Assembly (NCBI GenBank): GCA_015179045.1
Contig: WHUZ01000004.1
Coordinates: forward strand, 1 to 64,000
DNA: 64,000 nucleotides
DNA from: Kalaharituber pfeilii
Taxonomy: Eukaryota; Ascomycota; Pezizomycetes; Pezizales; Pezizaceae
Direction: 5' to 3'
Made by a program: the position numbers and the translations under genes. Positions within the stretch are counted from its first letter, which is position 1, and each line of letters opens with the position of its first letter. Below the pieces are notes generated by a model that had not been told where the DNA came from, did not search any database, and saw nothing but the letters and a program-made list of their open reading frames with translations. This document shows, in pieces, positions 29,574 through 62,063 of this stretch.

Positions 29574-29632
29574 CTCGCCATAGCCCAGAGGGCGGCAGGC
29601 GAGTAATGATATAAAAAAAACAAAAACAAAAA
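29574..29632 (+). mobile_element. Tail-only retroinsertion, type B
   Basis: The insert is only CTCGCCATAGCCCAGAGGGC, GGCAGGCGAGTAATGATAT and an A-rich run. TSD: ACCGGAGAGCTT (29562-29573) and ACTGGAGAGCTT (29633-29644), one C/T mismatch. The 5' end sits exactly at the base of the hairpin. Confidence 0.9.
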
Positions 29633-29948
29633 ACTGGAGAGCTTTCATGTGTATGCTCATGAGAATGGTAAACACGTTCTTATTATGCATATGTTGCTGA
29701 TTTAGGTAAAAGACTAGTCAAAGGCCCCTGCAGTCAGCTAAAACTCAGTCGCATATCCTAGTCTGGTTCGCATATCCTTGTCGTTACCTAAAGTTACGCA
29801 AAGTTATGGTGGTAATGCGACGATTTTGGCTCCGTAATCATGGTTACGTTGTGTAACGAAAATCGGCTCCCTCACGTTACGAAATCAGCCAATGAGAGCT
29901 TTTGCTTATGTCATGTTATCTCACTTAACAGTTACATGACGCAAAGCT

Positions 29949-29992
29949 TTTTTTGACGTGACCCCGCATGCGGCTGTTCGCCATGACAGGGC
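29949..29992 (-). mobile_element. Tail-only retroinsertion, type A (44 bp)
   Basis: On the minus strand the insert reads GCCCTGTCATGGCGAACAGC, CGCATGCGGGGTCACGTC and a short A run. The perfect 12-bp TSD TGACGCAAAGCT lies at 29937-29948 and 29993-30004. It is the shortest complete case in the window. Confidence 0.93.
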
Positions 29993-30004
29993 TGACGCAA
30001 AGCT

Positions 30005-30580
30005 GATAGACCCCTACTGTATGCCGCTGAGGGATGCAAAACGGAAATCGCCTAACTAATGGGCGATCCCAGCGAGCCTAATAAAGTAGATTGGGCCTGT
30101 TACGTGTTATATAGCTGATAGCGCGTCAGAGGTATCTGAGCTTATCTATAGCAGGCGGCGCGGCTAATTGCAGAGGCTCCACTGCTAAATCTATCATGGA
30201 TGTAGGCCTGACTTTGACTTCTTATCGTGCGCTAGAATTAAAATATAGATACGTAAAAGTTTCGTGAATATACCCACCAGAAGTTAGTGTCACTATCGTG
30301 ATGTTCCTGTTATATATGCTGGTGTGGTCGAGCTCGGAAGTACGACGGGAAGCAAGGACGCTGGAACAGAATTCTACATCCTCTTCTGTTGTACGACTCC
30401 AGCTTCACCACCCGCATGAGGGCTTCTCATAAGCCCAAATCATCCAACAGGGGCGCCTCCAGCACTTGCATCACGTGCAATACTCCATCGTCCGCTCCGC
30501 TTCCGGCAGTGCGCAAGTGCATCAGCTCGCATTATTCACTTACATTCTTCCAGGCCTTCTTTTGTACGAGCCTTCGCCGC
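30005..30580. other. No gene recognised
   Basis: A plus-strand frame at 30389-30619 (RASHKPKSSNRGASSTCITC) looks mildly protein-like but is cut by the tail insertion and has no family match I know. I leave it unassigned. Confidence 0.35.
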
Positions 30581-30594
30581 AGACTGACAAGCTT

Positions 30595-30650
30595 TTTTTT
30601 CTTTTGTTGGATCACATAAACCCGCATACAGGCTATGAGCGTATGGCAGG
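30595..30650 (-). mobile_element. Tail-only retroinsertion, type A
   Basis: On the minus strand: CCTGCCATACGCTCATAGCC, TGTATGCGGGTTTATGTGAT and an A-rich run. The core TSD CTGACAA occurs on both sides (30584-30590 and 30654-30660), with imperfect flanks. Confidence 0.7.
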
Positions 30651-30844
30651 AAGCTGACAACTTTCCTACTATGTTGCCAATAGGTCTAACATCGATTATG
30701 GAGACATTGATATTTGTAAGAAGTTGCAATAAAGCGTTACACTAATCTCCCCAGCATTCGTGTTGCAGATGCAGTTCTTGGTTTTTAGTATCTGGTACCA
30801 GCAGCGGAAGACTGGGCCGTAATGTCCAAATTCTGCCTGTTCGC

Positions 30845-30949
30845 TAGTGAGCGGCACGAGCTAGCTCGAGCCGAGCTGGAGGGTGAGCTCGAGCCAGCTC
30901 GTGAGTAAGTGAGCTCGGCTCGTGCTGGCTCGGCTCGTGCCGCTCACTA
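30845..30949. mobile_element. 105-bp hAT-type MITE (foldback) with 8-bp TSD
   Basis: Terminal inverted repeats are TAGTGAGCGGCACGAGC and its complement at the right end. The interior is also largely self-complementary (GAGCTCGGCTCGTGC-like). A perfect 8-bp TSD, CTGTTCGC, lies at 30837-30844 and 30950-30957. An 8-bp TSD with TAGTG ends fits the hAT superfamily. A partial copy is at 40354. Confidence 0.88.
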
Positions 30950-31345
30950 CTGTTCGCTCTGGACAAACCGACGATCTCAAGTCACGAAAAATTTAACCAT
31001 CAAGGTGCTTGATGTTTCTCAAGGCGGTAAGAGAGTCATGACGTCGGGCCAAATATCAAATATGATGATGGAAACGAGTCCATGTGACAGCAAATTTGCA
31101 AGCATCACACAAGCGGGAATATTGAACACGGAATACTGTTAGTTTCATTTCACAAAAGGGTAAAACCAAGCGCTTATTTACAGATATTTGTCTTACGATC
31201 TATCCCGATAACGGACTTCTATAATATTGCCGAACATTAATTATTCTTCTGTCTCTACTACCTCTATTCTTATGTTTGAGGGTACTCCTCATACTCGAAC
31301 ACCTGGATCGCTCATCAATGGCCCAGCCCAGTTGGTAACTGGACT

Positions 31346-31406
31346 TTTTTTTTCTTTCTTTTTTTTAAATCACATAACCCCGCTTGTAGCACGTGGCCAT
31401 GGCAGG
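31346..31406 (-). mobile_element. Tail-only retroinsertion, type A
   Basis: On the minus strand: CCTGCCATGGCCACGTGCTA, CAAGCGGGGTTATGTGATTT and an A-rich run. TSD: GTTGGTAACTGGACT (31331-31345) and GTTGGTAACTGAACT (31407-31421), one mismatch. Confidence 0.92.
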
Positions 31407-31770
31407 GTTGGTAACTGAACTGGGATGGGCTAATATCAGTGCAAATGAAAATTCGCCCGGGAAACCCCAAGCGCCCTGTGTACCCTGGATGCATTCCACC
31501 ACTTCGCAGCGCCATGGCACGCTTCAAGTAAACCTTGGCTTCAACATTGTAATTTTGTAGTGCTGGCGTAAAACTGAGTCAGGGTGACAACCATATGCCA
31601 TGAGCCTACTATAGTGGCCAAATAAATGTCCAACCTTTTTAAATTTAGTGTCCAACATGCGAAGTCTATTACTTTATAAAGAGAAAATCAAAAGACCTAT
31701 TTTAATTTAGTATATAAACTTGTGCTACGAAGATGTGCTGTAAGAAATTCAATTTAGCATACAAAAGTAT

Positions 31771-31786
31771 AAAGCGGGGTTATGTG

Positions 31787-31819
<33 letters not shown>
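31771..31819 (+). mobile_element. Truncated type A tail remnant
   Basis: Only AAAGCGGGGTTATGTGATTA and about 27 A remain: the 3' half of the hairpin plus poly(A). No TSD could be fixed. Confidence 0.65.
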
Positions 31820-31821
<2 letters not shown>

Positions 31822-31899
31822 TACGCTATAGCTTATAGGTTCAATAGTTTCTACTCTCTGCTAAGGTTTCAAACTGACCTACTATAGTTTACTACTATC

Positions 31900-33300
31900 C
31901 TGGGCATCCCACGTTCTGAGACATATTTACCATCAAAACTGTGAAACATTTGTACTTAATATCTCAACAACTACAATAGTATTAGTAAATACACTATAGA
32001 AAGCTATTAAGTAAAATATAATTCTTACTATCTAGTACTTTTTCTATATTAGAAATTATAATTATAGCTTATTAAATTTTAGTTAAAAGCTGAGCATTTA
32101 TTTAAAAAAAATTTTTATATAAAATATTTATTAGACTCAAAAATAAATCTATTCTTTAATATTAATTGTAATAACTATAATAATATATATTAAGAATTAA
32201 TAGTAAAAGTATAATAAAATACTTTATTTAGTTTATTTTTATTTATTAAATAATAGAAGTACTATATAATTATCTAGATTTAAATATAGTTTTTATATAA
32301 AAAGTTTTTATATTAATAGAAAATATAAATATTATAAATAATTTAATAACTATTATAAGTATTATCTAATAGTATTATTTATAGTATTTAAATAAGTAAT
32401 ATTATTAAATATAAGTATTTAAGGTTTTTTAAAAGTTAATTATAAGTATAATATATAAAATTTATAGGTAATAAAATTTATATAAAAATTTTATATAAGT
32501 AAATATTAAGTTTTTTAATAAAAATATAATAAGTTATAATCTTTTTATAATTATATTTTTAATAATAATAAGATTTAACTATATTGAAATATTAGCTTTA
32601 TTATATTTTAATACTTAAACTAATATATTAAAATAGATATAAGTTAAAAATTTATTTTTTTATTATATAAACAATTTTTATTTAGATAAATTTATAATAT
32701 CTATTAACTAAGTTTATTAAAAAAAAAATAATTTAATAAAAAAATAATCTTACTATAAAAAAAAAACTTAAAATAAAAAATTAATTTCTATAAATTTAAA
32801 CTATTATTAATACTATTAATAAATAATAGTATTTTTAAATAATATAAGTATTTACTTTTACTTATATATATATTAGATAGTTTTTATATTAGTTAGTATT
32901 TGTATTAGTTTAAGTTAATATAAGTTAGTTTTTTAGTATAAATTTTTACTTTAATTTAATATTAACTTCTTTAAATAAGTTAGTTTTATTTTTGAGAAAA
33001 ACTTATCTTATAAGTTGAAAATAGAGCTAATCATTAACTTGAATAAGAATTATATATATAGTAAAATATAAAATTTTCAACTTGTATCTATTTTAACTTC
33101 TTAGTCTAAAGTTTTTAATAAAAAACTAATAAGTTAAACTAACAAGTACTTATAATCAATATAAATACTAATATTAGTATAACTAAGCTAGTATAAGCCT
33201 TCAATAAAATTTTTCTTACTTTAATATAAACTTACTTAAAAACTAAGAAATACTTATTTATTATTATATTAACTTAGTAATACCCTATATATGATCTGAT
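31900..33300 (-). mobile_element. AT-rich, RIP-like degraded gypsy LTR DNA
   Basis: For about 1.4 kb nearly all C and G are gone and TA steps dominate, unlike the flanks. Read on the minus strand, ~32880-33150 aligns with the gypsy LTR piece at 22490-22760: ATAGATACAAGTTGAAAATT in this copy against ACAGATACAAGTTGAAAATT there. Most differences I can see by eye are C/G to T/A. This is the signature of repeat-induced point mutation. No open frame survives. Confidence 0.75.
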
Positions 33301-33875
33301 TTAGTTTACTAAATAACTAAGTAAGATATAGTATAACGAGATTTATAGTTAAGAACCTCATATTACTATGTCATGCTATTCAGAAAGCTGTTCTATGTAG
33401 CTGAGCGTCGACCGCGAATACTTTATTGTAAAATCTTCAAATTGATTGGTGGATAGGAATTCTCTTTTGGGATATGACCCGCGCCTGGCAGAATAGTGTG
33501 CAGAACCCCAGTCTGCGGCCTTGTACATGCAAGTACGATTCAATTAATGTAGTAGCACTACGGCTGGGGATTCTTAGCCCGCTGAACCCCCACACTTTGC
33601 TTTTTGTCTCATATTAAGTCAATGAATTAGTTCAATGATTTTCCAATGGCCGAACTGTTTCATTCTTAGAAACCCTGCACGAGGCTCCTATCACGCATAT
33701 AGCAGTAGTGCTCTCCTGAATAGCTAGATAAGGACTCTATATAAGTGCTCGATGGTTAGAAGGCAACGCTTCTTTTAAGTATTGGGAGATTTTCTCTTCA
33801 TACTCCGCATCATAATTGCATCCTCCGTCACTCCTCTAAAGACCCCTTCGGCCATTGTCGCGTTGTCCATAGCCA
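33301..33875 (+). promoter_or_regulatory. Upstream region of the decarboxylase-like gene, possible TATA
   Basis: After the AT block the composition returns to normal. TCTATATAA at 33736-33744 lies about 130 bp before the ATG. No other site can be supported. Confidence 0.4.
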
Positions 33876-36800
33876 ATGTCATATTATAAGCTTCCAAACG
33901 ATCCACGCAAGCCAATCAACGAGTCGGCCCACAGTAAGGTTGCGGCCTGGTTCCTAGGGCCTCGAGCAGAGAATTTCAAGTATCTGCATCACCTTTTTAC
34001 CGCAATTGCGGAACGTCAGGCACATGCCAGAAAAAATGTCTACCCGCATGACAAGGACTTCATCACGCAAGAGATCCAAGATTCCCAGACATTCCAGAAT
34101 GAAATGCGGAAAGTAGGAGATTATACTGAGCTGATCGCATGTCTGCTTTCGGATCATTCAGTGCCGTTTTGGTCTCCTCGATATAATGCCCACATGAACA
34201 TGGATACAAGTCTGCCCTCCATCATGGGCTGTAAGTGGTCCCCTTTCTCTCACAGATGTCCTTTCCTAGTTCTGCGTTATAGCTTGCAGTGACATGGAGC
34301 CCCAAGTTGGAATATATTCGAAAATCATTGCGGAAATGCTAACTTCGAACAGACTTGACAACAATGCTGTATAATCCGAATAACGTAGCTGCTGAAGCCA
34401 GTCCTTTGACAACTTATATTGAAACGACGGCGGGGCTTGAACTCTGTAAAATGCTTGGATATAATGTTGCGGAAACAGCAGACCAAAAGGAGACGGCTTG
34501 GGGTCATATTACCTGTGTAAGTCCAGAGTCGTTACGTTCCCTTCTGGCACTAACCTTGAATAGGATGGCAGTGTTGCAAACCTTGAATCTTTGTGGGCAG
34601 GTGAGTCTGCTGCTACCCTAAGGTTTCATTATTTACTAACGATGTATAGCTCGGAATTTGAAGTTTTACCCGCTCTCATTGAAGCTCGCGACCATCGAAG
34701 GCGGCCTTAAATTCCTCGTGGATGCACAAATGGAGCAACGAACACCGTTCAAAATCCATCTTTGTACTGGAGAATTGAAGCTTTTCCGCCTCTGCTCCGT
34801 TTGGGAACTCCTTAACCTCACTCCTCAAACCATACTAGACTTCCCATCTCAACTTTTCATACAATATGGAATCACAAAAACTTTCTTGGAAAGTGCACTT
34901 TCTCCATACTTGATTCAGACATTGGGTAAAGATTATTTGGAAAAGTACTTCCAGATTTCCAAGCCGGGAAAAATATTTGTCCCATCAACAAAACACTACT
35001 CATGGCCTAAGGGCGCAGGTAGGCACAATTTCCATATTGCTATGAACCCTATAGGCATACTTCCGACTTGATGGCTAACCTCATTACATAGCGATTGTGG
35101 GAATTGGTAGCCAAAACATTATCACTGTACCGGTTGATAATCGCGCCCGTATGGATGCTGAGCAGCTGGACAAAAAGCTGGCTGAATGCATTCTGCCGGA
35201 GAAGGAGAGTGAACGAACACCAGTATATACCGTGGTTGCCGTAATGGGGTCAACTGAACATGGCGCTGTTGACCCGCTCCGCAAAATCCTCGAAATTCGG
35301 GCAAAATACCAGAAGAAGGGTTTATCATTTGTCGTCCACTGTGATGCAGCATGGGGAGGATACTTTGCATCTATGATTCGAGATCGCCCATCTCGCCAGG
35401 ACTTGTGTCTCGATAGGTCGAACTTCCCGAGTATTGTCCCGAGTTTGTCTCTAAATTGTTACACCGAAGAACAGCTTAAAGGGTTTCCTGAAGCAGACAG
35501 TATTACTATTGACCCGCATAAGTGAGTTGATTTGCAGCATGGGTGTAAAGATTTCACCAAGCTAACAAATGTGAAGGTCTGGATATTGTTCTTATCCAGC
35601 TGGAGGACTCTGCTATCGTGACAACCGCATGCGGTACCTTGTTACTTGGACCAGTCCTATTGTTTTTCATGCTGGTGACGAGGATGGGAGTATCGGTGTT
35701 TATGGGGTTGAAGGAAGCAAACCTGGGGCTGCACCTGTTGGAGTCTGGTTATCTCATCAAGTCATTCCATTGAACTACACTGGTTATGGCACGCTTTTAG
35801 GTGAAGCTACTTTCAGCTGCACTAAGGTTTGTGGCTCGCTGGAATATGTTGTTTTGGACATTGAAGCTCATCATTCTTGCAGCTCTATTGCCATTGGGCT
35901 ACAATGACATCAGAGGCTGATAAGATCATCGTTGTGCCATTTAATATGCTGCCTACGGAGAGCGTCCCGAATCCTAATTCCGAAGAAATTGAGACACAGA
36001 AAGGCATATGCAACAGCATCCTCGGCTCCGAAAACGCGGACTTTGACCCAAACGCTTTGCTACAGCTGAGTCAAATTGGGAGTGACTTAATGATCAATGC
36101 ATTGGCCGTCAATTTTAAAATCGGTGGGAAGGTCAACCGTGATGTTGTAAGTAGCTGAAGTACTTTGCGCACTAGCCATGAAGGATATCTCTAAAATGTT
36201 GATTAGGTTGAGGCAAACTACTTCAACCATCGTATCTTCACCCGCCTCTCTGTCTCCAAACCGACAGATGTAGTTGGAGCCAAACCTCTGTTTATAACCT
36301 CGTCTTCCTGGCGAGCCGATGAATATGGGGCGTGCCTGGATAACTTCAAACGTCGACTGGGGCTGGAGGGGAAACAAGACTTATATGTATTAGTGAACGT
36401 GACAATGAGTCCCTGGCCTGCTGCAAACGACTTTCTGAAGAGGATTGCACACAAGTTTAAGAAGGTTGCGTTGGAGGAGTACAAAGTTAGTATAATCACT
36501 CCTATTATCCCAGGAGGACTGTAGGCTCACTGACGTTTTTCCAGGCCCTAGAGATAAGGAATACCATCAAACCCGATATCCACGGCTTCGTGATTCAGGG
36601 GGATACCAGAACGGTTCACCTAGTACATCTACCAATGTTCAACATGGCGAACCACCGATATCAAGCTATCCTCACTGGTGACTTACCAGAAGAAGTTTGG
36701 AAAAAATATATCGACTATAGAAAAAAGAACCCGGGCAAATTCTTTACTTTGGCAAATTGCGAACTGGATTTGCTTCCGACACTTATTAAGAAAGGGCATT

Positions 36801-40353: not shown

Positions 40354-40386
40354 TAGTGAGCGGCACGAGCTAGCTCGAGCCGAGCT
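40354..40386. mobile_element. Partial copy of the hAT-type MITE
   Basis: TAGTGAGCGGCACGAGCTAG and CTCGAGCCGAGCT match the first 33 bp of the MITE at 30845. The remainder is absent and satellite DNA begins at once. Confidence 0.75.
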
Positions 40387-40600
40387 GACAGGTATGGCAG
40401 GTTCCACTCGACGGCACGAGACATGGCCAAATGCGCTACATTTACAGGTATAGTAGTTCCCACTCGGCGGTGCGGGTTGGGGCAGAATGAGCTGAATTGG
40501 GCAGGTATGGCAGGCCCCTCTCGACGGCACGAGATCTGGCAGAATAAGCTCAATCTGACATCTACAGCAGGCTCCACTAGACGGCGTGATTTTGATGGCA
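40387..40600. repeat. ~60-bp satellite array, copy 1
   Basis: Three to four diverged units carry GACAGGTATGGCAGG, a CCACTCGACGGCACGAGA-like centre and GGCAGAATGAGCTGAA. The same family forms the array at 63590-64000. Confidence 0.8.
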
Positions 40601-44252: not shown

Positions 44253-45584
44253 GGATCGCTTTTTCTTCTGCCACTTGGCATTTCACATCCCTGTGTGAGG
44301 TTTACTTGCTTTTTTGCATGTTTGCCAGTGTGCTAACAGGGTATGCTGAATGGCATAGTGCAGTATGCAACACTGACAATTTCCTTTTGAAACAACTGAC
44401 TCAATATTATAATATTGTCTTCTAATGTAGATCCTGTGCAATATCAAAATGCTAACAAAGAGCTTAGCAGTGTAGGAGATGTAAGATTACAGATAGTTTG
44501 CGTTACTGAGTTTCAATGGACTGGGGCGGTGGGAGCTGGCGGAATGAGCGTATGACTACTCATGTAAAAGTGCGCGTACGAAAGAAAGGAAGTCTATTAT
44601 ATGAGCTACAGTACAGAATACCACATATATACCCATGTTCCTTACGTGCCATTCTCATCACCACGTACTCTCGGTTCCAAACTTGAGCTTTGCATGTACC
44701 TCCTCATTCCTATCTGGCGCCTTCCCTGCAGAAGGAGTCATTACTTTTCGTGCAGCGTTGTGTGTTCAGAATGAAACCTTGTTAGTTGATTCTGTTTTCT
44801 TGCCTGAACAAATTATCCAATAATGGATGAATCAAACATGAGATTGAATACCAGTAGGGGATTGCCGCTGCAGCCATTGAACAGGGATTTATATCGTTTT
44901 TCAGGCCCAAAGTGCGGCTGAGGATCCAAGAAATGTTCTTTTAGGCTGCAGGCCATAGATTAAAGTGCCTGTAATATACTACCATGATTCTGTGCACTCT
45001 ACAATTGCCTTGGCAGTTGCATGTAATTGGACATCTCGAGCCTCTTGGCGTCCGATAATGGGCAGTAACTTTCGTTTCAATATCCCTTCCCCACCTTGCA
45101 GCTGCAAAAAGAAAGGAAGATAGCTAAATGGATAATGCGCAACATATTGTAAACAGTGACCCATAACATTAATACCTTCCAAATGCCCAGCAATGCTAAT
45201 ATTTCAGCATCCGGTATGCTTGAAAGTTAAAGACTACCATGGGTCATCGCCCATAACACCTGGGCCAAGATTAGAATACAACCTATCACCAAGTTGGAAA
45301 ATTGCGAGTACATTTAGGTTTGGCTACAAATTATGTCCAATTGCAAAACGACAGCTCATTTCCAGATGGTTGCAAGATTATATGCACTTGTCTAGTGAGG
45401 CACGTGGCCTGTTTATTGATTTCTTTCTTTCAATTGTGAAGGGAAAACATCACATAACCACGCCTGCAGCTGTTCGCCTTGGCAAGGCGGCTGAGAATGG
45501 GAAAGGAAGAGATTGGGTTTGGCCTATAGAACTGTACAAGACGAAGTGGCTTGGTGGGCACCTTGGAGGGCTTGAAGGCGATAT

Positions 45585-45633
45585 TTGATTTTTTATATCA
45601 CATGACCCCGCATGCAGCTACTCGCGAAGGCAT
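45585..45633 (-). mobile_element. Tail-only retroinsertion, type A
   Basis: On the minus strand: ATGCCTTCGCGAGTAGCTGC, ATGCGGGGTCATGTGATATA and a short A run. TSD: GGCTTGAAGGCGATAT (45569-45584) and GGCTTGAAGGCGACAT (45634-45649), one C/T mismatch. Confidence 0.92.
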
Positions 45634-45649
45634 GGCTTGAAGGCGACAT

Positions 45650-45867
45650 AGGATTCCCTCAGTAGGTGAAGAGGACCCACTGGCTGATCTTGTGAGGTGG
45701 ATAGAGAGACAAAGGGCCCAGAGCCTCTGAGCCAACAGTATGAATTAGGTTATATTTTCTTTGATGTTAATGTTCCCTTTGTTTTTCTTTAATCTCTTGT
45801 TTATTTATACTAGCCATAGCCTGTAGGGCGTGGCATACGAAGTAATGACCCTAAAAAAACCAAAATT
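45650..45867 (+). mobile_element. LINE 3' fragment, tail type B
   Basis: The last ORF2 codons (EEDPLADLVRWIERQRAQSL, stop) are followed by a T-rich UTR, a damaged B tail (CTAGCCATAGCCTGTAGGGC, GTGGCATACGAAGTAATGA) and A-rich sequence. The 5' limit is unclear because the preceding tail-only insert interrupts the area. Confidence 0.65.
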
Positions 45868-46128
45868 TTGTTGACTATTGCACTAAGATGAATACAGACA
45901 TAGGGACGTAAATAGAGAACTTCATGGAAAATTAAAACTCCTCAGTTTGGAGAAGCACCAGAAGGACGTAAAAGGGCAAACTTCTGTGAAAAAGTGCCCC
46001 CACGCCAACTTTCCTTCCCGTTACATCGCTTCTTTGCGCTACTCCATACTTAGGCCGTCCTCACACTCCTGACACTTCAAGGCTACCTGGCGCCCTGTCA
46101 TGGCGAACAGCTGCAAGCGGGGTTATGT

Positions 46129-46323
46129 TGGTCACTCCTCCGAAGAGCAAGGACACAGACCCACTTAGAGACATCTTGGAGTGGGCAGGGGCATAGGAGA
46201 CACACAGGATCTTTTCTTATTCCTTTTCTTCTACCTTCATATGTATCTAATCTCATGTAACTAATCTCGCCATAGCCCCCAGGGCGGCACGCGAGTAATG
46301 ATATAAAAAAAAAAAAAAAAAAA
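46129..46323 (+). mobile_element. LINE 3' fragment (tail B) nested in a type A tail
   Basis: The last ORF2 codons (VTPPKSKDTDPLRDILEWAG) are followed by a UTR, a B tail (CTCGCCATAGCCCCCAGGGC, GGCACGCGAG) and ~22 A. The perfect 14-bp TSD AAGCGGGGTTATGT (46115-46128 and 46324-46337) is itself part of an A tail whose two halves lie at ~46090-46128 and 46324-46347. Confidence 0.93.
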
Positions 46324-46376
46324 AAGCGGGGTTATGTGATATAAAAAGCAAGAAAACAAAAAAGGCTACCGTGGCA

Positions 46377-46860
46377 TTAAAAGTCTTTAACCATTTTCGT
46401 TTTTAAGAGAAGAAAAAAAAATATACAAAGTGTACTCCTTTCAAGAAAGTTTAGGAAAAACCTCAAACTTACAACTCCCTTCAATGATTGATCAGGAGAC
46501 AAATGTGTCATTGTCCGATACATAGTTTCAACAGTACTGTAAAGCATTCCTTCGCTTCCTCTCCCAGCGACTTGATTGCTCCCAACCACTCTGATCCCCA
46601 ATTGACAGAGGAGGAGGCAGCCCATGCTCGCGCACTCATCTGCTTATTCTGTTAACTTACCTACAATTCATACCTGCGGTCGACCTTTTCTGTCATTACT
46701 CATATGCTGCTGTGCGGAGCCATGGAAAGACCTCGGGGGGAAGGATAATAGTGGTACCTCTCTTGAAACACCTCGGCGACTGCCACACATCGCAGCAACT
46801 CCATTAAGCTTTCCCTCTCCCCACCCTCCCCTCATTTCAGGCCCGCCTCCCCCTCCTGCT
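46377..46860 (-). other. Block present only in unit 1; possible exon remnant
   Basis: The minus-strand frame GRGSEGMLYSTVETMYRTMT + HLSPDQSLKGV ends at a GTAAGT donor (~46470). It looks like an exon of an unknown gene, but no partner exon can be joined and the family is not recognised. Confidence 0.3.
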
Positions 46861-48124
46861 ACCTCTGCAGCTCGCCTTCCTGTAATAGGTGGTCCTTCGT
46901 CTCCTCTGCCCTTCTACGCCACATGGATTCTTTGCTTTTCTTCAACTCGATGGTGACTCCTTATCAGCATTGATCGGCGGTTGTGATATTAGTACTCTAA
47001 TTGCTCCTGTCAAAATCGAACAGGACAGAATGATAGGTTAGGTTGAAGCCGATAGCAGGACTCATGCCAGCTGATCTCTTTCATCCTGAGCCATCAGGTA
47101 GACATTTCCCTCCCTACTACATGCAGGATTTTTCAAGTCAGTTTTGAAAAAGGGACTGTATATTGAACATTTGTTTTTCCTTTCTTCTATCAGGAGCGAA
47201 TTAAAAAAATTTTGTATGTTAAATAAAGGGCCTACTTATTAAACGCCTTTCATATAACCTTGTAGTCGGCGTTTTGAAAACTTGTGTATAACAGCTCACA
47301 ACGTAGCAGGAAGAAAACACCCTGATGCATATAGATTGCACATTGCTGTGCAGTCAGTGGTATTTTGGAAAACGGATATCTTGCACTGTGGGCGCCAAGT
47401 AAGCTCTATAGATTGTTTACACTAGTATCACGATGTGCCCATCATAAAAGTGAACTATACGTGAAAAGAATAACTCGGAGAGAGCATGGAAAGGGCAAAG
47501 AAGCTAGAACCCTGGACAATGTTTTAACTTACCTTTTTTTTTTTTTTCTTTTAGCTTTTTTGGTCAGGTAACTCCACATACAAAGGCTAGGAGCCTATGA
47601 CAACGATGGCTTTTTCTTTTCCGACTTAGATTCACATGCCTGTGCGAGGTTGGCTTGTTTTGTTGTATCTTTGTACCAACAGGGTACTTACTGACTGGCA
47701 TAGTGTAGCAACACTAACGATGTCTATTCGAAATAAGTGATATAATATTATAACATTATACATCCGCCGTAATATCAAAATGCCGACAAAGAGGTTAGTA
47801 GTGTAGGAGAAATAACCTGAAGATCACAGATAGTATGCATTACTGGCGGAACAGGAGTATGACTACTAATGTGAAAGTACGAGTGCGAAAGAAAGGAGGT
47901 CCATTATAAGAGCTACAGTACAGAATACCGTATGTTTCTCACGTGCCATTCTTATCACCACGTGGTTCCAGTGCCAGACTTGAGCTTTGCATGTACTTCC
48001 CTGTTCCCATCCGTCGCATTCCCTATAGTGGGATTCATTATTTTGGCTATGTGTGTTCAAAATGAAAGCTTGTTATTTGTTGCTGTTGTCTTTTGTGAAC
48101 AAATCATGCGATAAAGCATGAATC

Positions 48125-48189
48125 TTTTTATTTTATTTTATTTTTTTTTTTCACGTGACCCCGCATGCAGCTTTCCGCCATGGCAGGTC
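48125..48189 (-). mobile_element. Tail-only retroinsertion, type A, with empty site in unit 1
   Basis: On the minus strand: ACCTGCCATGGCGGAAAGCT, GCATGCGGGGTCACGTGAAA and an A/T-rich run. The perfect 14-bp TSD ATAAAGCATGAATC lies at 48111-48124 and 48190-48203. The matching place in unit 1 (~44820) has no insert. Confidence 0.95.
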
Positions 48190-48652
48190 ATAAAGCATGA
48201 ATCAACATGAGACTGAATAGGGGATTGCCGCTGCAGCCGTTGAACAGGGATTTATATTGCTTTGCAGACCCAAAGTGCGGCTAAGGATCCAAGAAATGTT
48301 CTGTTAGGCTGCAGGCCATGGCTTAATGTGCATGTAAGATGCCGCCATGATTCTGTGCACTAATACAATTGGCTTGGCAGTTGCATGTAATTGGACTCCT
48401 GCATCCGATAATGGGCAGTAACTTTCGTTTCAATATCCCTTCCCCACGGTGCAGCTGCAGAAAACATGTTGTCAATAGTGATTTATAATATCCCAATGCC
48501 CAGTAATGCCAACATTCAAGTATTCCAGTATGCTGAAAATTAAGAATACCATTGGTCGTCGCCTATAATGTCTGGACTGAGATCACAAGACAGCCTATCA
48601 CCTAGCTGGAAAATCGCGAGTACAGTTAGGTTAGGCTACACATTATGTCCAA

Positions 48653-48931
48653 ACCACCGAACATATACTCACGAGGTGCAGGACATGGAAACGGACCTGG
48701 TTACCCCACCGAAGAACAAGGACAAAGACCCACTGCGAGACATCTTGGAGTGGGCAGGGGCGTAGGAGACATCGTGGCGCGACCAGGGACGCAGGAGAGC
48801 TTATGTAAATAGACGGCAGGACGACGGACACTTTCCTTTAATTCCTTTTCTTTCCTTCTCGCATGTAACTATTCTCGCCATAGCCCCTAGGGAGGCACGC
48901 GAGTAATGATATAAAAAAAAAAAAAAAAAAA
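48653..48931 (+). mobile_element. LINE 3' fragment, tail B, perfect TSD, empty site in unit 1
   Basis: ORF2 end (ETDLVTPPKNKDKDPLRDIL + EWAGA, stop), T-rich UTR, B tail (CTCGCCATAGCCCCTAGGGA, GGCACGCGAG) and ~20 A. The TSD ACATTATGTCCAA lies at 48640-48652 and 48932-48944. Unit 1 reads straight through at ~45325. Confidence 0.95.
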
Positions 48932-49208
48932 ACATTATGTCCAATTGCAAAACGGCAGCTCGTTTCCACATTGTTGCGAGATAATATGCACTTGCCTAGT
49001 GAGCAATGTGGCCTGCTTTATTGATTTCTTTCTTTCAATTTTAAAGGAAAAAATCACGTAACACTACGGCCTGCAGTTGCTCGCCTTCGCGAGGCGGCTG
49101 AGATATAGGAAAGGAGCAGATTGTGTTTGAATTACCCGCACCTCGCCTTCCTGTAGTACGTGTCCCTCCTTCTTCTCCGCCTTCCGTACCACCTGGGCTC
49201 TCTGCTTT

Positions 49209-49259
49209 TATCGCCATAACTCCTAGGGCTGCACGCAATTAATGATAAAAAAAAAAAAA
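49209..49259 (+). mobile_element. Tail-only retroinsertion, type B, with empty site in unit 1
   Basis: TCGCCATAACTCCTAGGGCT, GCACGCAATTAATGATA and 13 A. The 8-bp TSD TCTGCTTT lies at 49201-49208 and 49260-49267. Unit 1 lacks the insert near 46935. Confidence 0.85.
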
Positions 49260-49670
49260 TCTGCTTTCCTTAGCTCAGTGTTGGCTGCTTATCAGCCTTG
49301 GTCAGAGGTTCTGATACTGGTACTCCTGTTGCTCCCGTCAAAATCGAACAGGACAAAATGACCAGTTAGAAAAGCCGAGGGCAGGACCCATGCCAGCTGA
49401 TCTCCTTCGTCCTAGCCAGCAGTGGGATACTTATAAACATTTCCCTCTCTACCACATGCAGGATTTTTCAAGTCAGTTTTGATAAAGGGCCTGCATATAG
49501 AATGTTTATGACTCGTTTCTTCTATCAGGAGCGAAATAAATACAAAATAAAAAAAAAGGACCTAATTATTGAACGCCTTTGGTATAACATTGTGGTCGGC
49601 GTTTTGAAAGCTTGTGTATTGACAGCTTGCGGCATAACCGAAAGAAAATACCCTGATGCATACATAGAGA

Positions 49671-51887: not shown

Positions 51888-51941
51888 TTTTTTTTTTTTT
51901 TGTCACATGACCCCGCATGCAGCTGTTCGCCATGGCAGGGC
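51888..51941 (-). mobile_element. Tail-only retroinsertion, type A
   Basis: On the minus strand: GCCCTGCCATGGCGAACAGC, TGCATGCGGGGTCATGTGAC and ~16 A. The perfect 13-bp TSD GCAAGTTCCACAT lies at 51875-51887 and 51942-51954. Confidence 0.95.
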
Positions 51942-54009: not shown

Positions 54010-56385
54010 TAATGGAAAATGGATGGTTTACCTGATACAAGATTGTGCGTGAGTAAAAGCATTGAGAACAGTTGTTTGAATGCAGTTTCTGATGGTATGT
54101 TATATTAAACGAGAAAAAGCAGAGGGGAAGGCAAAAAAAAAAAGGAAAAAAGGAAAAAAAAAAAAAAAAAAAAAAGTGGGGGGGGGGAGATTAGTAATTT
54201 GTTTCTGAAAAGTTTGAAAGGAGGAATGCGGGAATTGGAATATTGCTAGCACCGATAGTTTGACTCCACAGAGAGAATTGAAATGCTTTGTTTTATCAAA
54301 TGTTAATGTTAGATATCTCTTACTATAAGCTGTTTCAACCTATCTGTATCGGCCTACCGCTGAGGTACTTTCAGCCAATGTAGTAGACGCTTGAACAACC
54401 CCACAGATATTTAATATCAGAACTCCAGCTCGTATTCTGTGGAATACAATCACAAATATCTAGAAACTAGTTAACTGAGGAATAGACATTGTGATTACCA
54501 TGAGTACATTCAAAAGTTTTGCTTGTATTTAATTACATGAAATGATGGGGTTACCAGTGTGGACATGAATGCAGCTTCCAGTGTGTACGTCCTGATGGGG
54601 TGGCGACATCTACAGAAGGGCTACAAATGAGCGTAGAGCACAGAATGATTGCTGAGGCCACAGGAGTTGGCTATAGGAACATCGGATGTCACGTAAGGTC
54701 AAGTTGGCGAGGTGCTGCATTGGCTAGGAGGTGGTAACCTTGTGAAGGACGTGTAGATAGAACAATAAACCTGTTAGGCAAGCATGGATAGACTAGAGCG
54801 TTGGCTTGTAGACAGGCTTGGAGTCGCCATAGAGTATTTCCTATACCAGAATCGCTGTCATTGGACGTAAGCACAGCGAGCTGCGCCCTGTACCAGAATG
54901 GACTAGTCGTACATGGTGTTTCTCGACCGTACGCCGGACGGTGTGAATGCCGAGTGGGCCTGCCGTACATGAAATATACTTCCAGGTAGTGCCATATGCT
55001 GCCGTGTGTTGGTATATATTGCTCTCCTATGCTGGTACTGTATACTGCTGTCGAGCTGTAAATGAAGATGGCGAGCTGTCAACCTGTTGATCTGCTATGG
55101 TGCCATGCTGCCATGTACAGGAGGTTACCATCCTCGGCATGCAAGGCGAGTGTTTGTATACTCATCTTGCAGCTATACTGTTCATCTTTGAAGGCGTTGA
55201 GCTATTGGGTTATTGAACAGTACCATACTGGACACTTGCTGTATTTTTACAGTAAAGCAGATCATAACATAGAAGCAGCTCCTGAAATTTTGAAGAATAC
55301 AAAATTAAATTTATTCTATATGGTCTTGATGCCTTCATATTGCTGCTCTCCTCAGTTACTCTAGGTAGTTTAAAGAGTCTGAACTTCTGTACTCAGAGCA
55401 GGGAGAATAGATGATGCACATCTGGTAATATTCTGTTGATTTCTCCATCGACAAAAACATGGTTAGGATTACAAGCTTTTATTATGAAGTTAGGGATAGT
55501 ACAGTAAGTTATTAATTACATTGTGTACATTATTTTCTAGAAACCATAGTAGGTCAGTGTAGGCCTATGGGAGATATAGTTTTATGGCCAGTGGCAGGTA
55601 TTACAAAGTTGTACTTGTGGGTACTAGTGTTAAAACGGCTGTTCCTGGGCAGTCACGCATGTGCACGAACCAACAATATCAGTCACCAGGCGAGAAAAGT
55701 TCCTCGTACCCGAGCACCCCTCTATTTTTATTTTTATTTTTTTCTCCTTACATCATTATGCATATCCAGCCTTACAGCCATGACGAGGCCTATTAGAGCG
55801 TGCCTCCATACCTGTCTATGCTCTACCTATGTCTGGAGTACAGCTGTTCGCCCTGCCATTTTTTGAAAAAATTCGACACTATGCATAGCGCACTAGTGAA
55901 ACACACACAATGGGAGATCGGCAAAGCTAATCTGACACTAAGTCTAATATAATACTCTTATTTTAACGACTCGCCTCTTGACAAGGGTTAACTAAAGCAT
56001 GGAATATAAGTGAGAACCTTAAATTTCTGCGCCATCCACTTGCTGGTCAATCCCAGCTCTCAGATCTACATATGCATCTGCAGTGCCACGAGTCGACTGA
56101 GCCGCACTGTTGCATGCAGCTTAATCTACATGTACTATAGCTGCTCTTCCCCGTCCACTAGTAACTAGTAGCGTCGTTCCTCAAAGTCCACTAAATATTG
56201 GGACGGGTAGTACAACCAGACTAACTATCATAAGTATCTCCTTCCAACCTTACTCCAATGAGTAAAGCATGAGATTACTAGATGACACACATATTCTTCT
56301 CCTTGCGTCTGGCTCTTGGCTAGCCTCGTCCCTTCTAGCCCTGGAACATGTGACACACCAGCAGACAGTTTAGTAAGCAATGACT
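54010..56385. other. About 2.4 kb without a supported gene
   Basis: An A-rich tract with a G9 run lies at 54132-54190. A degenerate, minus-strand B-like tail (CCTCGTCATGGCTGTAAGGC, TGCATAATGATGTAA) with T-rich flank is at ~55728-55790. Other frames are short and without motif. Confidence 0.45.
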
Positions 56386-56387
56386 TA

Positions 56388-56497
56388 CTCGCTGATTTCG
56401 GAAAGTATTGGAACGCTGCATAAAGCGTATGCGCTATTCGCCTTTTGAGATAGTGCATATTATTATGCAGCGTTCCAATACTTTCCGAACCAGCGAG
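56388..56497. mobile_element. Small foldback MITE, TA-flanked
   Basis: The left arm CTCGCTGATTTCGGAAAGTA, TTGGAACGCTGCATA pairs with the right arm (minus strand CTCGCTGGTTCGGAAAGTAT, TGGAACGCTGCATA) with one mismatch and one indel. TA lies at both outer ends (56386-56387 and 56498-56499). Size is 110 bp with no coding. Confidence 0.75.
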
Positions 56498-56499
56498 TA

Positions 56500-57304
56500 T
56501 CGTGAGCGAGAATCAAACCCGATCTTGGCATGCACTGCCGTCCCAACATATATTTTTTGTTTTGAGCAATCGCTTGAAATATCAAGAACATTGGGAGAGA
56601 TGGCGACAATGAAAAAGAGAATCAACCAAGAAAATAAAGAAATATGTGGAAAGATAGAAGGGCGGGGATAAGTACTAGTTGATTATCATAAAATGCTATC
56701 GCATATAGCACACCTGTGCCAAGAAGTTGACCTTCCCGCACGTGATCAAATAGCGAAAGCTAAGATCAAATGGCAAACTAAGTAATATTTATTGTTATAT
56801 ACTCGAAATGGCAAAGATTGAATATTCCAAATCAAATTGGGAATCTAACGACTAGAAATTGAAACTGGCGATAAAGTTAGTTTGAGTCAGCTATCATTAG
56901 AAGAATCAGCAGCGACTGCCAATGATAGCAGAGCGAGTCCCCGTCTGCATTTATTCGATGCGATCTCAGATAGAATGCCAAGCTATCCCCGTGCTTGCCC
57001 CACGCCAAGACTTGCACTAGTTGCCTCTCACCTTTCGGCAGTCCCGTGACCAGACTTAGTCAGGTCGTATGAAATCTGAGACGAGAATACACACATGCAT
57101 AAACTCTGATTAGTCAGCCAGGCTGCCCTTTCTCCCAACCTCCCGCCACTCCGACAAGCGTCTGGAAACCCCCTCTCTCTGCACTTCTCTTCATCCCTGA
57201 CCCTCATACCCGCCTTAGTCCCTTCCTCCTCCTGATATTACATGCACGACCTTATTCTCGCCCTATCGTCATTATGGCCAGCTCAAGATCCTTTCTACCT
57301 TGTT
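56500..57304. other. No gene recognised
   Basis: Short frames only. ATGGCCAGCTCAAGATCC at ~57273 is in frame with the Ulp1-like frame beyond the LINE insertion, but this join is speculative. Confidence 0.35.
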
Positions 57305-57318
57305 CTCTTTTCCGCTTT

Positions 57319-58055
57319 TTTTTTTTTTTTTTTTTTTTTTTTTCAATCACATAACCCCGCTTGTAGCCCGGGCAAGCCCTCATAGCCCGGAGACAGGCTA
57401 AACTAACTTTCTACGTACATGGCCCCATCGCGCCGTCGCCCCCGCTCTCCTAACTTCTAGAACTTGACCCTGGCGAAGAAATTCTCTAAAATATCATATT
57501 CCTCCCCGCCTTTCTCTTCTAATTCTTTCCCAGGTCGCTCCGCCTCTCAAAACCTTCTGGACGGTTCTCCTGGCTTCTGCATCGGAAAGCGAGATGCTCC
57601 CCGTTTGCACCTCCCCACACCTGCACCTATCCGATTCCGCCACCCCCAGCTTCTTCAACCATATAGCACACCTTCCTCGCTCCAGTCGCAATGCAGTGAA
57701 GTTTGATGTCGCCATCCTACTCCACTCCATGACCTTCCCTCCTCCGAACCCCTCTATTTCTCTTCTCTTTCCTCCACGCCTTTATTCTTTGGCGCGCCCC
57801 ACTCCCGGTGGCCACCTCTCTCCCCTTCTCCATCGTCCCTTTCTTCGCCCACTTATCCGCCTTCTTATTCCCTGCAATTCCGATGTGAGCCTTAACCCAC
57901 ATCAGTTTCACATTACCCCCCATCTTCTTCCTCCTATCCACCGCATCCACTACCCTCCTCACGTCCTCCGTCTTCCCCTTCCCCTCTCTGCCTGCCTTCT
58001 TAGTCGCCATAATGGCAGCTTCCGAGTCCAGACAGATCAGGACCGGTACCTCCTC
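57319..58055 (-). mobile_element. LINE 3' part, tail type A, perfect 14-bp TSD
   Basis: The minus strand encodes the ORF2 end in two frames: GKTEDVRRVVDAVDRRKKMG, LMWVKAHIGIAGNKKADKWA and the knuckle start CRCGEVQTG. It is the same subfamily as the LINE at 5671. The tail carries GCCTGTCTCCGGGCTATGAG, then TACAAGCGGGGTTATGTGAT and ~28 A. The TSD CTCTTTTCCGCTTT lies at 57305-57318 and 58056-58069. Confidence 0.93.
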
Positions 58056-58072
58056 CTCTTTTCCGCTTTGCT

Positions 58073-58384
58073 GTGATTGTTAATAAGAATTTAAGCTCCA
58101 ACAAAGGGATCCGACCTCGTTTGGTCGGAAATAGGAAAGATACGCATAAACTGGACGACGTCATGAAGATATCCCTCCCTGCCCAACATTCTAGACCACT
58201 TGTTTGGATGCCTTTCTATCACTTGGAAGATAGTATCCATTTCATTGCGATAGTCCCGGTGACGCTGACAACTGCGGAATTGGAAATTACTATCCACTTG
58301 TTTGACGCACAGTCCGATCTCCACCATGGTTGTACAGGGGAGTATGACAGCATGCGAAGCCAATGGAGTAGAGTTGCTCACTGA
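58073..58384 (+). pseudogene. Fragment resembling a Ulp1-type (C48) cysteine protease
   Basis: The frame includes SRPLVWMPFYHLEDSIHFIA, IVPVTLTTAELEITIHLFDA and Q. This resembles the His-Asp part of Ulp1/SENP-like peptidases, with possible catalytic His in SIHF and Asp in LFDA, often found in fungal transposon or KDZ-type proteins. The catalytic Cys region is not seen; the frame stops at 58384. The LINE at 57319 inserted just upstream. The antisense frame 58420-58091 is also open, so the call is weak. Confidence 0.3.
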
Positions 58385-59339
58385 AGTCTCATCGAAGTCC
58401 AGTCTAGAGCACTTCCGCATTTCTCATGGGCCATCAGCAGTGCCCGCAGAATCCTTTCCCGCGGCATCTGTCTCCGTCCCATTAACTTGAGGGTAGATGT
58501 TTGCTGCACTGCCCCCAAGAGCAAAAGTTGAATCCGCCTCTTGAGGTATGAGGGGTAAGGTTTGCAGGAATCCGCATGCATCATTCTCTTCAGTGGGCGA
58601 TAGAGCCGGAGGGCTGGAGGTTGTTGAGAGTGGGTTACGCTAAGGATGTTTGGAAGGGATATGAGAACTGACCATATCTGAACAATAGGAGGCACCCTTC
58701 CGCCCAGCGCCTCAAAATCTCATTTGTCTTTATACACAAAGTGCTCACCTATCCCCCGTACCTCTTTCGGGTCAACAAGATTCGCTGGAGAGAATCACGA
58801 ACGCTACATCTCTACAACTAGCTCGTCGATATACCTAAGCTTCGTGGGCCTACAATAGCTTCTCAATATACCGAGCCAGGTGACTTATCACAACACACTC
58901 TTAAAGAATTGTATTGGTCAACTCAATTTACCGAGTCTATTCCTCAATCACTGTTCCAATTACCCCCTGTTTACAAGATTTCCAGAAGCCATCATCATGA
59001 TGAGAAAAACCTGAGGAACTCTTAATAGTTTACATAGTGGAATGATGCTGATGTACTCATTGGTGCAATTTTGATATATTTCCGAATTGTATCATTATTT
59101 GAGTTGAGAAGAGGTTTGTCTTCCAGGGATGTCGGTTCGCGACGTGTACGTTATTCAGCTCACTAACTCGGTCATTGGCATAGGAAGCAATCAGTGAACT
59201 CTAAATTCCATCGCACAACCGAAAACTTATAAGCGTTTACAGGCAGCTGGATTTTGAATATTCCGATTCCCAATACTACATCACCCTCATCACCGGGACG
59301 ACGTGGAGGTTTCAAAAATGTGGTAAGGGAGAAAATCTT
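58385..59339. other. No gene recognised
   Basis: No frame of note with a motif. Sequence near 59000-59200 is AT-rich. Confidence 0.4.
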
Positions 59340-60300
59340 GGAGGAATCCGGAAGAGGAAGGGGGCGGGTAGATAGGAGAGGTGGCTGAGGAATTTTTTCA
59401 GAAAGAGAATATTCAATGAATGGGAATGCAAGGAGAAACAGAAGGATGAATATAGGAGCTCACAGGAGTCACATTAGCACCGATTATATTTAATTTGGCT
59501 GGCGCAAATGCTGAGGAAGACAGAAGAGACCCTGGCAGAGAGTTGTAGGATGCAGAAACGGATGTACCCTCCACATGGACGACATAAACGCAATAATATG
59601 GGACTGGGAGGGCGCAAAGGACATGGAATGGCTAAGGGTGAGAAGAATTGTCAGGCAGGTAGCAGAACTGAACGGGGTACCACTAGCGGAGGCTAGTATA
59701 GGGATATAGTTATCAAGGGGGAAAGAGGTGGAGGGACCTGAATAGGATAAAAGGGCTGGGAATCATTTTCCACTCGACTCTAGCCTTCGATTTCCGTTCG
59801 AGGGCAAAAATCGAGAAGGCGAACAAACTGGTGAGGGCGGCGGTATTCACAGGAATAGATGGAGGAAAGTTGGGGCTGAACCTAAATAGCTGGGCCAGTT
59901 ATACACCGGAATGGTGATGGTGATCGTCATGTGGGACTCGGAAATTGGCTGGAGGGATCAGGAGGAATCGCGAAAAGAAATAGAGACATTGCAGCACCAG
60001 GTCCTGAAGAAGGGGACGGGGGATACATGGTAACGGTACAGCGAAGGAGGGGTGAATTGGATTGTGCGGGTGGAGTTGATACTGGATGATGCACATGCAA
60101 GGATCGCCGCACGCAGCATGGGAGATCCCGCAGGGTGCCGGGAACGTTTGGACAACGGACTTCAAGGGGGAAGGAGGGCAGGAGAGGAGAGAGTGAGGGA
60201 TTGGAGGGACTGGGACATAGGCTGGACAATAGAAAAGGCGGATGGCTTCGAGTCGGTTGTAGGGCACAGCTACGCCATGCCGGAAGGATTGGAAGAGCTA

Positions 60301-61392
60301 TTTTTTTTTTTTTTTTTTTTTTATATATCAATACTCGCATGCCGCCCTATGGGCTATGGCGAGGGTTGATATTAAAAGTAAAGGAAAAATTTCAAAGATA
60401 GGTACATGTGATGCCCGCAGTGCTCATACATGATGCGGGTGGAATGTCAAATCCAAGAGTCGTGTGCCGGGACCTGCCTATTTCCTTCCTCTGTCCGGCT
60501 CGTACACGCTCGTCCGCAACCACATTCCTCCGAGCTTGACTTTCCCAATTTCCTCCTGTGTCTCCAAGTATACCACCGCGGAGCTAGTCTTCTTGCCTTC
60601 CTCCACCAAGATGGCCTTTCTCCGCAGCCATCTCATGCCTAGAGTCTGTCCGATGTCTTTGTTGGCAGCCTCCAACCATCTTCCGACATTCCCCAAGTCT
60701 TTCCTCAGGGCTATGCCATGTACGACAATGCCGTATTTCGCGGTGGTGTTGTCGGGGCTGGTTGGGGCGTCTGTGCTGGCTTTGGAGCGTGGAGGTGGGT
60801 TCTGGGGGCGGCGTGGAGGTGAATTCCGGGAGCAGGGGAATTTTTTTTTGTTTTTTATATCAGTACTCGCATGCCGCCCTATGGGCTATGGCGAGGGGAG
60901 CGGGGGGAAGGAGTAGGGGTGGCAGTCGGTGATTTCGATGTTGTGGCAGGCGCGCCGCCTACGGTCTTTAGTGCATTGTTCGGGGGTGCTGAGGCGATTT
61001 CCTTTGCCTCCTCGTCATTCAGCTGGCGTTTAACGGCGTATGTGTCCAGGCTGCACGATGTCTTTCCTTTGCGCTTCTTGTTGTTCCCGATTGGCTGAGT
61101 GGGGGTCGACGTGGGGGGGGGAGGGGGAGGGCGTCGTTGGCGTCGTGCTCTCCGGTTCCTCTAAGAGCACGGTGGAGATGGGGCTGAAGCCTATAGCTTC
61201 AGTCGCCGGCTGTGTCTGTATGCACGTGATGGGGCTGAACCCTAGTTGCTGTGGTGGCGGTGGCGGGGGCTCGGAGGGGCTGGGAAGGCTGATGGCCGGC
61301 CGCATGTCTGTGCCCCAGCTGCTCCCTAGGACCGATCCTGGTGTCGGATCGGGGGCCGGGCCGCGGACGTCTTCTGTCGTGTGTCTCCAGAG
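60301..61392 (-). mobile_element. ORF1-only (half-LINE) element, tail type B
   Basis: The minus strand encodes the Pro-rich N-part (QQLGFSPITCIQTQP, IGFSPISTVLLEEPE; 61305-61030) and the ORF1 C-part (GNVGRWLEAANKDIGQTLGM, KKTSSAVVYLETQEEIGKVK, LRTSVYEPDRGRK, stop at 60478). A ~110-bp UTR follows with the hairpin ACCCGCA...TGCGGGC, then the B tail and poly(A). AGAGCTA occurs at both ends (a short TSD candidate). A B tail-only insert splits the ORF at 60841-60895. No ORF2 is present. Confidence 0.85.
60841..60895 (-). mobile_element. Tail-only retroinsertion, type B, inside the ORF1-only element
   Basis: On the minus strand: CTCGCCATAGCCCATAGGGC, GGCATGCGAGTACTGATATA and an A-rich run. The flanks GGGAGCAGGGGAA and GGGAGCGGGGGGAA are an imperfect TSD in G-rich DNA. 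Confidence 0.8.
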
Positions 61393-61987
61393 CTAGCACT
61401 GGGCGGAGAATGCGAAAAAGTGGACGTTGAAGAGGTAACAGGAGAATGAAAAGAAGGGAGGAGAGAGAATGAGAAACCTCAATCGAGTGGGTCACGAAAG
61501 GGATGGGAGGAGTATACACTGATGGCAGCGTATTTGGAAAAGGAAGGTGAGGGGGGATTGGGAATGAGACAGTAGAGGGGGCGGCGGGGAGGGAAGGGGG
61601 ACGGGGATGGAAACAGGAGCCACCGGTGTAGAGTTAAAGGGGATAAGGTTAGGTTTAGGACCGATGTACGAGTGATAATACTGACGACTCACAGCCAGAA
61701 ACTGCAGCAGTGAAGAGGGCACGGGAGAAGAGGAAAGGCGAGGGCGGAGGACAAAAGGGAGCAGTGCAAGAGATAGCCAGAAAAAATAGGGGAGAATGTG
61801 GTGAGGCTGATGTTAGTGAATGCACACGCTTCAACGGGAATGAGAAGGCGAATGCGGAGGCCAAGGAGATGATGGGGGGAAGTCAGTGGTTACCGAAGGT
61901 GCTGAGGCAGAGCTGGAACCGATCGGGGCAATGGCGAGGAGGGAGCCAAGATACGGAGGCGGAAAGATTGGGAGAGTGGGGGGGCAC

Positions 61988-62063
61988 TTTTTTTTTTTCT
62001 TTTTTTTTTTTCTTTTTTTTTTAAATCACATAACCCCGCTTGTAGCACGTGGCCATAGCAGGG
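61988..62063 (-). mobile_element. Tail-only retroinsertion, type A, inside the LINE
   Basis: On the minus strand: CCCTGCTATGGCCACGTGCT, ACAAGCGGGGTTATGTGATT and an A-rich run. The perfect 14-bp TSD GAGTGGGGGGGCAC lies at 61974-61987 and 62064-62077. Confidence 0.93.

Follow-up and report, generated by a model that had tools for sequence, protein, structure and literature searches.

Ten short hairpin inserts in the window

We analysed a stretch of 64,000 nucleotides (nt), hereafter the window (C295:1-64000), from the 78.03 Mb, 360-contig assembly of Kalaharituber pfeilii, the Kalahari desert truffle, an ascomycete. The window holds ten inserts that consist of a hairpin and an A run only. The hairpins are of types A, B (subtypes B1 and B2) and C, of which A and B also form the 3' ends, or tails, of long interspersed nuclear elements (LINEs). 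The inserts and their flanking target-site duplications (TSDs) are as follows.

29574..29630, plus strand: tail A hairpin and A run; TSD 29560-29573 / 29631-29644, 14 bp with 1 mismatch
29949..29992, minus strand: tail B1, tail-only; perfect 12 bp TSD
30591..30653, minus strand: tail C hairpin (insert 30595); 7 bp TSD, not clearly above chance
31342..31406, minus strand: tail B2, tail-only (insert 31346); TSD of 11 bp perfect, or 15 bp with 1 mismatch
45582..45633, minus strand: B1-like tail, tail-only (insert 45585); perfect 13 bp TSD
48125..48189, minus strand: tail B1, tail-only; perfect 14 bp TSD; empty paralogous site near 44.8 kb
49209..49259, plus strand: tail A, tail-only; perfect 8 bp TSD; empty paralogous site near 46.9 kb
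51888..51941, minus strand: tail B1, tail-only; perfect 13 bp TSD; identical to the B1 pattern of the genome counts
60839..60895, minus strand: tail A (insert 60841); TSD of 11 bp with 1 mismatch, not clearly above chance
61988..62063, minus strand: tail B2, tail-only; perfect 14 bp TSD

An earlier note on this DNA had placed tail-only inserts at these ten positions, and all ten are present, each as a hairpin with an A or T run. We scored each TSD as matches minus 3 per mismatch and took the chance level from 300 random position pairs. Eight of the ten inserts, with TSDs of 8-14 bp, reach a score of at least 8 and seven reach at least 10, scores that are attained by 9 and 2 of the 300 random pairs, respectively. 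The inserts at 30595 and 60841 score 7 each, a value also reached by 18/300 random pairs, and are thus unproven by their TSDs. The mismatch counts of the note differ from ours, because the TSDs had been cut at different places. Measured between the TSDs, A run included, the ten inserts are 44-76 bp long.

For two of the ten, those at 48125 and 49209, the comparison was extended to empty sites: the joined flanks align, small gaps aside, to insert-free paralogous stretches within the window. The empty sites are provided by the region 44635-49540, which contains several diverged repeat pairs, about 2.3 and 3.3-3.6 kb apart, with 78-90% identity.

The inserts do not carry the tRNA, 5S rRNA or 7SL RNA head with an internal RNA polymerase III promoter that characterizes a short interspersed nuclear element (SINE), and a comparison of the window with Rfam gave no match at gathering score.

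Tail sequences and their source LINEs

Tail A reads CTCGCCATAGCCCnnAGGGCGGCAnGCGAGTAATGATA followed by A's. Tail B reads (G/A)CCCTGCCATGGC...GCGGGGTYAYGTGA followed by A's, with subtype B1 comprising GAACAGCTGCAT, GAACAGCTACAA and relatives, and subtype B2 comprising CCAAGTGCTACAA and relatives. The predicted fold of tail A has an energy of -13.5 to -13.9 kcal/mol (z about -2.2 to -2.3), and that of the composite C hairpin -18.9 kcal/mol (z -2.3). Among 94 distinct tail A sequences, the outer C-G pair is replaced by A-U in 16 and an inner C-G pair by U-A in 13. These double changes keep the pairing and suggest that the tail A hairpin is conserved as an RNA structure. In tail B, the outermost pair is G-U in 22/44 distinct hairpins and A-U in 17/44.

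Both tails are abundant in the genome. The A hairpin pattern has 5,483 matches at up to 2 mismatches, with 0 for the reversed control; a pattern limited to the 3' part of A and its A run is matched 4,547 times, and a 3'-only B pattern 1,790 times. The B1 hairpin pattern is matched 2,078 times (up to 2 mismatches), and the LINE sequence upstream of B1 joined to the first part of B1 is matched 312 times (up to 3 mismatches). For B2 the corresponding numbers are 765 and 516. At up to 1 mismatch, the B1 variants CTGCATG and CTACAAG have 1,115 and 1,248 matches, counts that partly overlap and are not additive, and 90 CTGCATG-type places have LINE sequence upstream at the same tolerance.

That the tails are LINE 3' ends, as had been proposed, is confirmed by LINEs with reverse transcriptase (RT) and RNase H that carry them. 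From a search with RVT_1, in which 150 of 1,113 candidates were scored, we fetched four places where the match length suggested a LINE RT; three of the four carry tail A or B. In the first (L129), an open frame encodes 1,150 amino acids (aa) with Exo_endo_phos, the endonuclease domain, as well as RVT_1 and RNase_H, and a B2 tail ends 163 nt downstream. In the second (L130), an open reading frame (ORF) with RVT_1 and RNase_H is followed by an A tail that ends 84 nt downstream and by a B tail another 93 nt on. The third (L131) has RVT_1 and RNase_H in two frames, then a B tail. At the fourth (L132), no tail was found within the stretch fetched. The source LINEs are candidate members of Tad1, a clade of fungal LINEs.

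The window itself contains tails that are still attached to LINE sequence.

2772..2823, plus strand: LINE-borne B1 tail with TCTAGACCCAGGG as upstream context; the insert starts 201 nt above the 3' motif; TSD of 15 bp with one mismatch
7616..8434, plus strand: 3' part of a LINE, with an RNase H ORF at 7616-8305, the 3' untranslated region, tail B2 and then an A run
46266..46303, plus strand: LINE-borne tail A; the insert runs on for about 137 bp above the hairpin; TSD of 14 bp

Insert lengths across the sampled genome

Tails were found by their 3' motif and A run. Each insert was then taken to start at its best TSD within 1.5 kb, a step in which the 5' half of the hairpin was left unused. The resulting length distribution covers the window and the loci around the first-listed pattern matches, and is thus a sample rather than a full genome scan. 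One A sample was drawn with a hairpin pattern that needed most of the hairpin, so that ends within the hairpin are under-counted in it; another was drawn with the 3'-only pattern, which has no such requirement.

In the merged 270 kb, 142 A tails gave 71 inserts and 66 B tails gave 35 at a TSD score of at least 10. The insert starts 22-28 nt above the 3' motif, which is the 5' base of the stem, in 25/71 A and 23/35 B inserts, as opposed to the 3.9 and 1.9 expected there under a log-uniform truncation model. The TSDs are well separated from chance, since 88/182 tails reach a score of at least 10 and only 1/182 does so with swapped flanks. When every position was searched, the 21-27 bin was the highest, and the flank-swap control was 0 there at a score of at least 8; the bin above it was likewise elevated, as truncated matches to one and the same TSD are counted again there.

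We then counted inserts outside the window, taking repeated TSDs once and leaving out 20 loci chosen for an exact B1 hairpin. On this basis 69 of 131 A tails and 29 of 52 B tails have resolved TSDs, distributed by distance above the motif as follows.

0-21 nt: A 7, B 0
22-28 nt: A 26, B 19
29-60 nt: A 3, B 2
61-200 nt: A 11, B 0
more than 200 nt: A 22, B 8

Within the window, the 22-28 nt class at a score of at least 10 holds 1/5 A and 5/7 B inserts. Among the loci fetched for particular B1 variants, 17/20 with the exact hairpin and 11/12 of the CTACAAG type (chosen as not listed with LINE sequence upstream) are tail-only with a TSD. The truncation points of the short class are thus not scattered as in ordinary 5'-truncated LINE copies, while the remaining, longer inserts do scatter, to about 1.2 kb.

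The clustering of 5' ends at the hairpin base, which had been noticed in the window, therefore holds outside it and lies far above the flank-swap control. The check that the earlier note had proposed, a plot of insert lengths in which a sharp peak would speak for a discrete unit, gives such a peak at the hairpin base in the sampled genome. These results strongly support a discrete unit of which the inserts are copies: a LINE 3' hairpin of about 38-40 nt with poly(A).

Position of the 5' junction

The set of B1 junctions includes 20 loci picked for the exact hairpin and 12 picked as CTACAAG-type hairpins for which no LINE sequence upstream was listed. Since these loci were picked by variant, the numbers describe the junctions and not population shares. 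In 44/47 tail-only B1 inserts, a G directly precedes CCCTGCC, and this G is the outermost paired base (G-U) of the predicted stem. The TSD is flush with the element in 24/47, overlaps it by one base in 10 and by two or three in 3, and is separated from it by extra nucleotides in 10. The share with an overlap (13/47) is close to the 25% at which a single base would match by chance. Similarly, 9/10 B2 inserts start on the A of the A-U outer pair, and 5 are flush. In the 12 inserts with extra nucleotides (10 B1, 2 B2), the G of the LINE adjoins the start in 3/12 (one in a simple repeat).

For tail A we placed 32 starts. Eight lie at the stem base, 6 are one nucleotide up, 7 two up and 2 three up; 7 lie one to three bases lower, and 2 are four or seven up. 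The defined 5' end of a SINE is therefore found in B1 and is softer in A.

Origin of the 5' end

We favour, at about even confidence, the reading that a LINE reverse transcriptase likely ran to the end of a short RNA template, at the stem base; the end of the complementary DNA (cDNA) would then be that of the RNA. It is favoured because the B1 start is nearly single-nucleotide, the extra nucleotides are mostly untemplated and the junction overlap is small. The short RNA would arise when longer transcripts are trimmed at their 5' ends; a 5'-to-3' exonuclease that stalls at the hairpin, or at an RT bound to it, is one candidate. Such trimming would leave a stub of hairpin and poly(A), still competent for target-primed reverse transcription. 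The hairpin would then have two jobs, recruiting the LINE protein and setting the element's own 5' end, and for that reason the unit would need no promoter or body. At least seven tail A loop variants are common to tail-only copies and the remaining A copies, as expected if many source RNAs were trimmed alike.

A broader claim can be built on this reading, although we hold it to be rather doubtful: that some 39 nt of hairpin make up an entire non-autonomous mobile element, with neither promoter nor body, whose fold would both recruit the LINE RT and fix the 5' end by blocking RNA decay, any read-through transcript being pared to a new, identical mobile stub.

Several observations weigh against a short RNA ending at the stem. 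The B hairpins have modest folds (B1 -14.3 kcal/mol, z -1.2; B2 -13.6, z -1.4), and the structural claim rests for this reason on the shared stem and, in tail A, on covariation; the pair changes in B are one-sided only, including those to outer G-U or A-U. Tail C, which has the more stable hairpin, gave no tail-only insert with a TSD score of at least 8 among 7 copies. Outside the window, 7/69 A inserts end within the hairpin. About half of the tails have no resolved TSD, and these include long copies running beyond the fetched stretch, so that the tail-only share is a range. A control on the 5' junctions of longer, internally truncated copies has little bearing either way, many of the donors being the same locus: of 36 flush cases, 18 have donors that overlap the TSD by at least 10 bases, the mark of the same locus, and the other 18 overlap by 0 (9 junctions) or 1 (9 junctions). 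Finally, some points suit a stop of the RT itself. The tail A boundary is soft, with ends mostly 0-3 nt above the stem that are partly templated (upstream bases matching the LINE: ac 5, c 3, aac 1 and cac 1; n=32), and no extra RNA species is needed; moreover, a cDNA ending just past the hairpin would give an identical footprint.

Such a stop is the strongest rival, and we regard it as possible at clearly less than an even chance. Here the RT would start on the full LINE RNA, copy the hairpin and terminate at its far base, and the fragment would integrate as an extreme 5' truncation; the cDNA folding into its own hairpin, or a second RT holding the stem, may cause the termination. The end of the cDNA does coincide with completion of the stem, and the RNase H of the LINEs could free the cDNA for the putative folding step. 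One B2 copy (C1:1184455, L097) starts with AAGCCTG, close to the base of the adjacent hairpin upstream, and has a 15 bp TSD, a single case of what is possibly a second stop. In Magnaporthe, hairpins are predicted near LINE template-switch sites in the data reported in PMC2104539. A plain stop nevertheless fits less well: travelling 3' to 5' along the RNA, the RT would first run into the opposite side of the stem, whereas the inserts hold the entire hairpin. According to the same report, the MGL RT of Magnaporthe exits before GCC at GCC*A/U motifs (PMC2104539); GCCAU lies inside both hairpins, yet inserts that start 17-19 nt above the 3' motif number 0/55 in B and 1/74 in A. In addition, the extra nucleotides of B are LINE-like in 3/12 only, and the excess of overlap at B1 junctions (13/47) is small. 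The earlier note had offered both mechanisms, a stop at the stem or the mobilisation of a tiny RNA; its interpretation is supported in part, in that the plain stop fits less well and the starts and extra nucleotides of tail B are better matched by a short-RNA end.

We consider it improbable that the tail-only copies form a conventional, very small SINE family, derived from one or a few small-RNA genes that are dedicated to this role and have their own promoter. The B1 hairpins are far more numerous (2,078) than those with LINE sequence upstream (312), the latter having been counted at a looser tolerance and with a shorter hairpin part. CTACAAG is found in 16/20 fetched LINE-attached B1 tails, and 34/36 tail-only B1 copies are other variants, mostly CTGC, in a set biased by the 20 loci picked for exact CTGCATG. 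However, CTACAAG hairpins not listed with LINE sequence upstream are tail-only as well (11/12 fetched). Tails A and B also behave alike, with the tail-only A copies spanning many loop variants, and a unit of about 40 nt has no room for an A/B-box promoter. A dedicated small-RNA gene for B1 is possible, but it would not explain tail A. We had considered the difference between LINE-borne and tail-only B1 copies as a marker proving an independent SINE lineage; this was dropped, since CTACAAG-type hairpins are tail-only too.

Ordinary random 5' truncation, with a cluster produced by chance or by detection bias towards short inserts, is very unlikely: longer inserts are indeed harder to resolve, most fetched loci ending 0.7-1.5 kb upstream, and longer A copies do scatter, yet all positions were searched alike with a swap control of 0 at the peak, and the adjoining 29-60 nt interval holds only 3/69 A and 2/29 B inserts, which detection bias cannot explain.

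Other features of the window

An open frame of 721 aa at 8736-10901 encodes a Plavaka transposase (Pfam PF18759, E 2e-47). At 30838-30932, a GAGCTCG-rich sequence of 88-95 nt has at least 35 further copies in the genome, almost all of them 95-99% identical and many accompanied by a related piece a few hundred bases off. It resembles a terminus of a short DNA transposon or miniature inverted-repeat transposable element (MITE). The stretch 32001-34000 has 22% GC, compared with 40-60% in the other 2-kb bins, and many short AT-rich repeats; it may be a repeat with a heavy load of mutations or an insert resembling organelle DNA. Two related 57 bp minisatellite arrays, at 40386-40591 and 63635-64000, lie about 23 kb apart.

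Significance and comparison with known systems

If the short-RNA origin is true, the inserts would be among the shortest retroposons known and would show, on a natural population of probably more than 1,000 copies, how little RNA suffices for a LINE machinery. The old question of how a non-autonomous retroposon comes by its 5' end would become testable, and RNA decay intermediates could turn into heritable mobile DNA. Elements this short may escape repeat finders. Repeat-induced point mutation in fungi acts on longer repeats, and elements of about 40 nt may escape it as well.

As a scale for these lengths, the elements reported for RetroSeeker span 100-1,500 nt as whole elements in the animals that it studied (PMC11727581). 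In literature searches on fungal LINEs and SINEs, stem-loop tails, minimal SINEs, truncation and exonucleases, judged by titles and abstract openings and with subscription papers mostly outside reach, no element of this size came to our notice.

Zebrafish LINE proteins are reported to recognise their own 3' stem-loop tails, and the Tad1 clade is said to include tail-sharing LINE/SINE pairs (PMC4176376); the fungal pairs MGL/Mg-SINE and Blumeria SINE2-1_BG/Tad1 are listed in PMC3747384. Our inserts resemble such stringent-type systems (UnaL2 and its SINE, the ZfL2 LINEs, MGL/Mg-SINE) in that the LINE 3' tail is common to autonomous and non-autonomous copies. They differ in that the partner SINEs are listed as tRNA-derived, whereas the K. 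pfeilii copy is the tail alone, without head or body.

With 5'-truncated LINE copies, the inserts share the LINE 3' end, the poly(A) and the TSD, an anatomy that points to target-primed reverse transcription. The ends of ordinary truncated copies scatter, whereas those in K. pfeilii pile up at the stem base, in most B1 copies at the outermost pair. The WEIRD-MGL chimeras of Magnaporthe, as described in PMC2104539, are alike in their fungal LINE RT, in the predicted hairpins near the switch sites and in their direct repeats (12 and 14 bp in two new chimeras). Their MGL parts, however, are 230-5,461 nt long and fused to a second RNA (PMC2104539), whereas the K. pfeilii end lies past the hairpin, with nothing fused to it.

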